40,063 nt of DNA, from the NCBI GenBank assembly GCA_021205305.1, contig JAJPXU010000048.1, positions 41,218-81,280 on the forward strand, in the 5' to 3' direction. Below are positions 11,299 through 25,431 of the stretch, piece by piece. The notes beneath the pieces are model-generated. The model ran no database searches. It worked only from the letters and a program-made list of their open reading frames with translations, and was not told where the DNA came from. How positions within the stretch are numbered: the stretch's first letter is position 1; each line of letters begins with the position of its first letter. Source of the stretch: Lachnospiraceae bacterium (GTDB lineage Bacteria; Bacillota; Clostridia; Lachnospirales; Lachnospiraceae). The position numbers were made by a program, and so were the translations under genes.

Positions 11299-11976
11299 TT
11301 ATTCGTATCCGTTGTATTCCGACATCACACCCAGCATTTTCTCCACATTTGCAGCACGATCACCGTTAAACACCGCAGAACCGGCCACGCAGACATTCGC
11401 CCCGGCTGCAAGAACCGTCCGCAGCGTCTTATCATTTATGCCGCCATCCACCTCAATATCAAGCGGAAGCCCCAGTTCAAGCGCTTTCTGACGAAGGGCA
11501 CGGATCTTTCCGGTCATCTCAGGGATATATGCCTGTCCGCCATACCCCGGATTTACCGTCATAATCAATACCATATCGAGATACGGAAGCACATAATCAA
11601 GGACACTCAGAGAAGTAGCCGGATTGAGCGCAACCCCCGCGCGCAGCCCAAGGCTCTTGATATCGTGAAGAACCCGCTGCAGATGTTTTGCGGTCTCAGC
11701 GTGTACGGTAATGCTGTCTGCGCCGCAGGCGGCGAAATCCGCTATGTATTTCTCCGGCTCAGTGATCATCAGGTGGACATCAAAGACGCTGTCCGTCGCA
11801 CTGCGGATGGAAGAAATCACAGGCATACCAAAAGAAATGCTCGGCACAAAAACACCATCCATCACATCGATGTGCAGGTAGCTGGCGCCTGCCTTTGCCA
11901 CAGTCTCTACTTCATTGCCCAGATGCTTAAAATCAGCCGCCAGAATAGACGGTGCCAGTATATTTTTCCGCTCCAT
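11299..11976 (-). CDS. rpe: ribulose-phosphate 3-epimerase
   Basis: LAPSILAADFKHLGNEV, YLHIDVMDGVFVPSISFG, MTVNPGYGGQAYI. Start at 11976 (MERKN), preceded by gggaga. Confidence 0.95.
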   Translation of the reverse strand: MERKNILAPSILAADFKHLGNEVETVAKAGASYLHIDVMDGVFVPSISFGMPVISSIRSATDSVFDVHLMITEPEKYIADFAACGADSITVHAETAKHLQRVLHDIKSLGLRAGVALNPATSLSVLDYVLPYLDMVLIMTVNPGYGGQAYIPEMTGKIRALRQKALELGLPLDIEVDGGINDKTLRTVLAAGANVCVAGSAVFNGDRAANVEKMLGVMSEYNGYE

Positions 11977-12000
11977 GTTTGTTCTCCCTGTATTTTCGTC

Positions 12001-12192
12001 GTTCTTTTGTAACAGTTCAGAACAGCATCGAAATGAAAAGACAGACTGTGCAGGTTTACCTGCTAAAGGCTGTATTTTCATTTCGGGATGGGCGAAACGC
12101 CCATCAAGCCTCAGACATATGACGCGTCAGCGGCATATAGCCTTCAAAGAAGGCGGTCTGTGGCCTGCTGTTCTGAATAGTTACGTTCTTTT
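12001..12192. mobile_element. MITE-like element A (12009-12184) with 8-bp target duplication GTTCTTTT (12001-12008 and 12185-12192)
   Basis: Ends GTAACAGTTCAGAACAGCAT (12009-12028) and CTGCTGTTCTGAATAGTTAC (12165-12184) are near-perfect inverted repeats, flanked directly by identical 8-bp gttctttt; related copy at ~25298-25431. Confidence 0.85.
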
Positions 12193-12275: not shown

Positions 12276-13217
12276 TCAATATTTCCGCCTGCCCTTCAGT
12301 TCCTCGGCCAACAGCTCATAGCTCTCATATCTTGCCCGGTGGATTTCCCCTTTTTCTACTGCCTCCTTCACGGCACAGTCCGGCTCTTTTAGGTGCATAC
12401 AGCCCTGAAACCGGCAAAAAGACTCATACGGAGCAAATTCGTGAAAATAGTCTTTCAATTCTTCGTATTCGATATCCTGTAAATAGAGGGAACTAAAACC
12501 AGGAGTATCCAGGATATAGCTGCTGACAGGAAGTTCTCCTTCCTGATCATATATATCCGTATCCGCCTCCGCATCTTCTTTCCCGTATGATTTCAATACC
12601 AATAACTCTGTGTGACGGGTCGTGTGCTTCCCACGGTCGATTTTCCGGCTGATCTCTCCTACTTCCATGTGTTCTTCCGGCAAAAAACAATTGGTCAGGG
12701 AAGATTTCCCGACTCCGGACGGACCTGCCAGCACAGTCGTCTTCGCTTCCAGAAGTACACGGATTTCATTCAGGCCTTCCTTCTGCGCAGCGCTTACAAA
12801 ACGCACTTCGCAGCCGCAGCCGCGGTAAATCTGCTCCAAATCCCGCGCCTGCCCTTCGTCGGCCAGATCGGTCTTATTAAAACAAATGATGACAGGGATC
12901 TCCTGACGGTTCATGAGGATCAGGAATCGATCCAGCAGATTCAGGTTAGGCTTAGGGTGTGTCAGCGCAAATACCACCATCGCCTGATCGACATTAGCGG
13001 TAGCCGGCCGAATCAGCATATTTTTTCGCGGCAGCAGAAAGTCAACATTTCCGGTCTGTTCTTTTTCATCCAATATGGAAATCTCGACATCGTCACCAAC
13101 AAGAGGCTTCACCTTTTCCTTGCGGAATATGCCCTTTGCCCTGCACTCGTAAACCTCTCCATTTTCGGCGTGAACGTAATAAAACCCGCCGACTCCTCTG
13201 ATTATCTTTCCACGCAT
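12276..13217 (-). CDS. rsgA: ribosome small subunit-dependent GTPase A
   Basis: Circularly permuted GTPase: CFNKTDL, AGPSGVGKSSLTNCF, ILDTPGFSS, CRFQGCMHLKEPDCAVKEAV. Confidence 0.94.
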   Translation of the reverse strand: MRGKIIRGVGGFYYVHAENGEVYECRAKGIFRKEKVKPLVGDDVEISILDEKEQTGNVDFLLPRKNMLIRPATANVDQAMVVFALTHPKPNLNLLDRFLILMNRQEIPVIICFNKTDLADEGQARDLEQIYRGCGCEVRFVSAAQKEGLNEIRVLLEAKTTVLAGPSGVGKSSLTNCFLPEEHMEVGEISRKIDRGKHTTRHTELLVLKSYGKEDAEADTDIYDQEGELPVSSYILDTPGFSSLYLQDIEYEELKDYFHEFAPYESFCRFQGCMHLKEPDCAVKEAVEKGEIHRARYESYELLAEELKGRRKY

Positions 13218-25216: not shown

Positions 25217-25262
25217 CTCATCGGTTCTCCTTTGTCATTTCTCCCTATTATAAATATGAAAC

Positions 25263-25431
25263 AGGTGCGGGCACAGTCACATGCCGCAGTTTCTGAACTC
25301 CATCCCAAAATGAAAATACAGTCTTTAGCAGATAAATCTGCACATCTCCGCTTCGCTCCGGTCGGTGCTAAACGAGCGCCACTGGCGCTCAGCACCTGTT
25401 TTTTCATTTTGATGCTGTTCTGAACTGTTAC
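25263..25431 (-). mobile_element. MITE-like element B, related to the element at 12009-12184 (one intact GTAAC end at 25431)
   Basis: Minus strand reads GTAACAGTTCAGAACAGCATCAAAATGAAAAAACAG...TGTGCAGATTTATCTGCTAAAGACTGTATTTTCATTTTGGGATGG, near-identical to element A except for a ~50-nt internal hairpin insert. Confidence 0.75.

Follow-up and report, generated by a model that had tools for sequence, protein, structure and literature searches.

The 176-bp segment at positions 12009-12184 of the window (the whole 40,063-nucleotide stretch of DNA analysed here) is a genuine multicopy MITE. It carries 19-bp inverted ends and is bordered on both sides by a perfect 8-bp duplication, GTTCTTTT. The two arms, 12009-12027 and 12166-12184, are 19 nt each and 89% complementary; in the orientation of the window the element starts GTAACAGTTCAGAACAGCAT... 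and finishes ...CTGCTGTTCTGAATAGTTAC. The segment is short, it is present in many copies and it contains no transposase gene. Folded with DNA parameters it reached -62.6 kcal/mol, compared to -21.0 (sd 3.2) for shuffled sequences (z -12.9). Its copies, ends, 8-bp duplications, empty sites, independent insertion, compensatory changes and module insertions lead us to consider it very probable that we are dealing with a non-autonomous MITE that was inserted in trans between rsgA and rpe with an 8-bp stagger, and whose body consists of conserved branched hairpins. The family has apparently not been described so far. Features of the element, and a second member of the family in the window, are listed in Table 1.

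Table 1. Features of the MITE upstream of rpe and of a second family member, in window coordinates
Feature	Position	Strand	Remarks
Left target-site duplication GTTCTTTT	12001..12008	.	8 bp
176-bp MITE	12009..12184	+	The strand shown runs hairpin A-B-C and is antisense to both rsgA and rpe
Left terminal inverted repeat	12009..12027	+	Its outer 12 bp, GTAACAGTTCAG, agree with the family-wide end GTAACWRTTCAG
Hairpin A	12029..12085	+	Module site 1 after GACAG (in relatives)
Hairpin B, GATGGGCG/CGCCCATC	12087..12105	+	Module site 2 is the hairpin B loop
Branched hairpin C, two inner hairpins	12108..12164	+	Module site 3 in the 3' part
Right terminal inverted repeat	12166..12184	-	GTAACTATTCAGAACAGCA read inwards
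Right target-site duplication GTTCTTTT	12185..12192	.	8 bp
Second, decayed copy of the MITE family	25247..25431	-	Module at site 1; right terminal repeat not recognisable

Copies were counted in the element's own genome, a 3.12 Mb draft in 173 contigs, by combining searches with fetched stretches. This census yielded 13 copies that are nearly full length, along with numerous partial ones. The end pattern GTAACWRTTCNGAACAGC, allowing up to 3 mismatches, occurred 261 times (132+129), compared to 8 times (5+3) for the reversed-pattern control. Matches to the element were also present in 36 of the 47 genomes of the genus. From the fetched loci of the genus we collected 52 distinct GTARC...GYTAC elements, a set that comprises this family, a sister family and 2-3 probable chance pairs. 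Their flanks agreed at 8/8 positions in 19 elements and at 7/8 or better in 27, while left flanks paired with the right flanks of other elements gave 0.15% (8/8) and 0.64% (at least 7/8). The other copies carry the same terminal inverted repeats, and their target duplications vary from copy to copy.

The insertion separates rsgA (complement 12276-13217) from rpe. Comparison with relatives places the rpe start at complement(11974..11976); 24 nt separate it from the duplication, and an unchanged CAGGGAGAACAAACATG leader adjoins this start, between the duplication and the gene. The insertion created an in-frame upstream ATG (12081), which would lengthen rpe by 35 codons through the element (11977-12081, minus strand). 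This open reading frame start was rejected as the start of rpe, since it is an artefact located inside the element and the native start in relatives differs. The orthologous rsgA-rpe spacers of two relatives, L121 (RsgA 91% identical) and L124, are devoid of the element, that of L121 having diverged so that it does not represent the pre-insertion sequence base for base. In L122 and L123, a copy of the element is found in the same spacer at a different position and in the opposite orientation, with the duplication AAATGAGG. The empty spacers together with this copy at another site indicate that the rsgA-rpe spacer was hit at least twice independently. In the window the insertion accounts for about 184 extra bases in the spacer, near the rpe ribosome-binding site. 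No sigma-70-like promoter was found in the rsgA-rpe region, and its single terminator-like site (11937-11952) falls within rpe, outside the element. An influence of the insertion on rpe expression is possible. The earlier note had delimited the 176-bp segment with its inverted ends and 8-bp duplication, and these boundaries proved exact. It had read the segment as a MITE-like, non-autonomous element sitting in the 5' region of rpe, a reading now borne out by copies with different duplications, by empty spacers and by the independent insertion in L122/L123. The comparison that it proposed with the whole genome and with relatives showed a multicopy element flanked by differing 8-bp duplications, and the empty sites to be looked for were those of L121 and L124. 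Its reading was to fall if no other copy had a duplication or if all rpe loci carried the segment; other duplicated copies exist, and so do rpe loci without the element.

A common fold was derived from an alignment of 32 diverse copies, aligned by sequence only. It comprises 51 pairs, distributed over an outer stem made of the terminal repeats, hairpin A, hairpin B and branched hairpin C, and 97.6% of the corresponding cells are paired in the alignment. Two-sided changes were observed at 31 of the 51 pairs, compared to a shuffled mean of 13.9 and to 6-11 when the pairing was slid by 1-3 columns, and the covariation score was 0.301 as against 0.118 after shuffling. Unpaired junction bases are conserved in the same alignment, and the three-hairpin layout is common to distant copies despite wide sequence divergence. 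In DNA palindromes, template switching from one arm to the other can also produce compensatory changes in the absence of selection. Wobble pairs made up 26 of 1589 paired cells in one set and 33 of 1405 in another (1.6-2.3%), the latter including a few wrong-strand matches. Among 12 tRNAs from these loci they were commoner (16 of 256, 6.25%), and their scarcity in the element argues against ordinary RNA selection alone. This low-wobble argument is itself opposed by the conserved unpaired junction bases and by a strand asymmetry, one strand being the better folder in 26 of 29 distant copies, possibly because of shared loops. The polarity of GU versus AC, taken as an indicator of RNA, was 26 to 7 over all pairs and 8 to 5 when helix-internal pairs only were counted.

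A covariance model of the fold recovered members in 60 of 397 sampled Lachnospiraceae genomes, representing 56 genera; the best E-value was 1e-11 or lower in about 30 of the 60, and the weakest matches may be due to chance. Copy counts per genome are lower bounds, as six candidates were scored in each. Among 69 distant copies, 38 keep at least 9 of the 12 positions of GTAACWRTTCAG at both ends. Duplications were perfect (8/8) in 11 of these 38 and matched at 7/8 in 5 more (16/38 at 7/8 or better), with control values of 0.0% (8/8) and 0.64% (at least 7/8). Exact 12-mer ends GTAACWRTTCAG numbered 192 in genome G075 and 56 in genome G102, with a control count of 0 in each case. These two end-rich genomes of other genera provide good material for a transposase hunt.

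Members of the family differ in size. A module of about 52 bp, consisting of a hairpin GGYGCT...AGYRCC followed by GACCGAAGYGRARCGKAGA, occurs at three fixed places: in hairpin A it follows GACAG, in hairpin B it occupies the loop, and in hairpin C it lies in the 3' part. An element carries it either singly or twice. Direct reading showed that the arms of the module hairpin co-vary between copies (GAACGTCC/GGACGTTC, GATCGTCC/GGACGATC and GGACATCC/GGATGTCC). Altogether, element forms span about 21 to 279 bp, with reduced forms of 115, 64, 58, 50, 45, 38, 26 and 21 bp, and perfect duplications were found at size variants of 26, 50, 58, 134, 176, 227 and 277 bp. The 115-bp form is present at several sites with different flanks, indicating that reduced forms moved or arose repeatedly. 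The smallest forms are palindromes made of the two ends alone: one of 26 bp (L274:4839-4864), with a perfect 8-bp duplication GTTAAATT, and two of 21 bp (L313:3998-4018 and L298:3342-3362), whose flanks agree at 7/8 and 6/8 positions. The sister MITE family, GTAACTATTCAGGACAGTACCTCGC...GTGAAGGTACTGAACAGTTAC, is about 134-175 bp long and has other hairpins, with common tips and 8-bp duplications. Members of the sister family, with tips GTAACTATTCAGGACAGTAC / GTAACTGTTCAGTACCTTCA, were seen at L234:1995-2128 and in many places in G007, G011 and G014. The common tips and 8-bp duplication of the sister family point to one recognition system serving several bodies.

IS66 elements in general have GTAA tips and generate 8-bp duplications, and the earlier note had on this basis named an IS66 transposase as the mobiliser. 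The 8-bp target duplication expected of an IS66-derived MITE is indeed present. The IS66 transposase profile PF03050 gave no match in the element's own genome, and it was absent from the MITE-rich relatives G010, G011, G015, G019, G020 and G021. Elsewhere in the genus IS66 is present (25 of 47 genomes), and its readable ends, GTAAGCGATGAATAA, GTAAACGTCAAA, GTAAATGTAAAACC, GTAAGCAGGAAATAATCC and similar, differ from those of the MITE after GTAA. The MITE end pattern, at up to 2 mismatches, was found in no IS66 locus of the genus. The full IS66 element with the same ends that the earlier note had suggested searching for was thus missing from the own genome and from the IS66 loci of the genus. 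With the gene absent from these genomes and no matching end among those readable, its attribution to IS66, which rested only on GTAA and 8 bp, was not supported, and the mobilising enzyme is probably not of the IS66 type.

Other candidates were rejected as well. An origin from IS6/IS26, which have a similar core and an 8-bp duplication, was discarded as the IS6-like elements of the genus begin GGTAGTGTCAAA. Such elements were observed at L324-L329 and L331, where the ends are GGTAGTGTCAAA and the transposases measure about 480-525 aa; they resemble the long Clostridia members of IS6/IS26 mentioned in PMC6807381. The IS256 profile PF00872 was absent from G000, G010, G011, G014, G015, G019 and G021, and its single weak match in G020 was an IS6-like gene, leaving no true member in the eight MITE-rich genomes. 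MITE ends were absent among the inspected loci of DDE_Tnp_1 (PF01609) elements. Two convergent end pairs lying 3.7 kb apart in G075 were considered as an autonomous element and turned out to enclose ordinary genes between separate MITEs. In the own genome, orphan ends run into MITE sequence or decayed copies. No autonomous partner with the MITE ends was found among the IS66, IS6, IS256 and PF01609 loci or the end-motif pairs examined. A multicopy IS could be lost at the ends of draft contigs; where contig-end motifs were inspected, they led into MITE sequence.

How the element moves can be proposed from these data. A transposase would recognise roughly GTAACWRTTCAG at both ends and insert the element into AT-rich sites with an 8-bp staggered target duplication. 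The enzyme that does the cutting would be of the DDE type and would be supplied in trans, from elsewhere in the genome. The body is a fixed, branched set of hairpins (A, B and C), which the paired terminal repeats close and which relatives across Lachnospiraceae have in common. The folded nucleic acid, be it extruded or single-stranded DNA or a transcript, may matter for persistence or mobility: the fold may aid movement when extruded, protect a host transcript, or merely persist by arm-to-arm template switching. We tentatively put forward a more specific proposal, itself rather doubtful, in which these elements would form a family-wide class whose branched hairpin body is a functional unit, a folded DNA or RNA serving movement or host tolerance, equipped with exchangeable hairpin cassettes at fixed positions and served by a dedicated DDE-type transposase acting in trans and having no transposon of its own.

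Several other explanations were weighed against this scheme. If the family were derived from IS66 and mobilised by an IS66 transposase whose donor has since been lost or remained unassembled, the GTAA tips and the 8-bp duplications would be accounted for, and IS66 does occur in the genus (25/47 genomes). However, IS66 is missing from the host genome and from six MITE-rich relatives, and the remainder of the end sequence differs from the IS66 ends of the genus, so that we regard this origin as improbable. The strong compensatory covariation, the conserved unpaired junction bases and the bias of 26/29 distant copies towards one strand as the better folder would fit a conserved host structured RNA (leader, attenuator or small RNA) that became multicopy by chance and is not a transposon. 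As a sole explanation this is refuted by the 8-bp duplications found at a large share of copies. It also conflicts with the empty orthologous spacers, with the presence of both orientations relative to rpe, with the scarcity of wobble pairs by comparison with the tRNAs of the same loci and with the lack of any match to the covariance models of 4227 Rfam families at E-values up to 1, which together make it very unlikely.

The elements might also be ordinary MITEs with a functionless fold, in which template switching at replication maintains the complementarity of the palindromic arms. The few wobble intermediates agree with this, as do the reduced and expanded hairpin forms, which are of the kind made by replication slippage. 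Arm-to-arm correction would not, however, preserve the common three-hairpin layout and the conserved unpaired junction bases, and we consider a functionless fold possible, if on balance unlikely. REP sequences are palindromes that occur in many copies and may depend on a chromosomal transposase (PMC3733652), and a palindromic repeat mobilised in this way by a tyrosine transposase (REP/RAYT-like) would explain the high copy number, the palindromic organisation and the fact that no autonomous copy was found. But REPs bear GTAG at one end and their transposase acts on single-stranded DNA (PMC3733652), whereas the Lachnospiraceae element has GTAAC repeats at both ends and 8-bp duplications. Such chemistry makes neither duplications nor paired inverted ends; the duplications refute this last explanation, to which we give almost no credence. 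The non-autonomous MITE inserted in trans, with its body of conserved hairpins, is the reading we retain.

Structured MITEs are a known class in prokaryotes; this family, with the fold that it has preserved, seems to be new. The element was unmatched in phage and plasmid collections, and in the literature searched we found neither these end sequences printed in a relevant context nor a description of the family. A close parallel in architecture is provided by the BOX elements of Streptococcus, which are multicopy, intergenic, strongly folded and presumed non-autonomous, and which combine core parts with a variable hairpin module, boxB, whose folding depends little on the remainder of the element (PMC3049150). 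These features are common to both elements, but the Lachnospiraceae element has a module of about 52 bp at three alternative positions, GTAAC ends and 8-bp duplications, and its relatives identified with the covariance model span 56 genera of one family. RUP, SPRITE, ERIC and Correia elements share with it terminal inverted repeats, target duplications, AT-rich sites and stable stem-loops if transcribed (PMC3049150, PMC10969869, PMC2229807), whereas its ends differ from theirs and its branched fold of three hairpins shows two-sided covariation at 31 pairs across distant copies. QMITE2 of Coxiella burnetii, also a MITE, is similar in size, has duplications of 7-9 bp and gives a transcript that folds strongly; it differs by its host and its longer terminal repeats of 23-29 bp, and modular variants are not described in the part of the source consulted (PMC10969869).

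Prokaryotic MITEs are usually regarded as decayed IS remnants, the interiors of which drift freely. In the family reported here, compensatory change has kept the interior fold across dozens of genera while the sequence diverged, pointing to selection or active maintenance of this fold. The natural size series, from about 21 to 279 bp with or without modules, gives access to the minimal needs of a transposable DNA, and the 12-bp recognition sequence offers a handle for finding the missing transposase. The family also allows many intergenic repeats of gut Lachnospiraceae that carry no label to be annotated; some of these lie in the leaders of operons, as at rpe.
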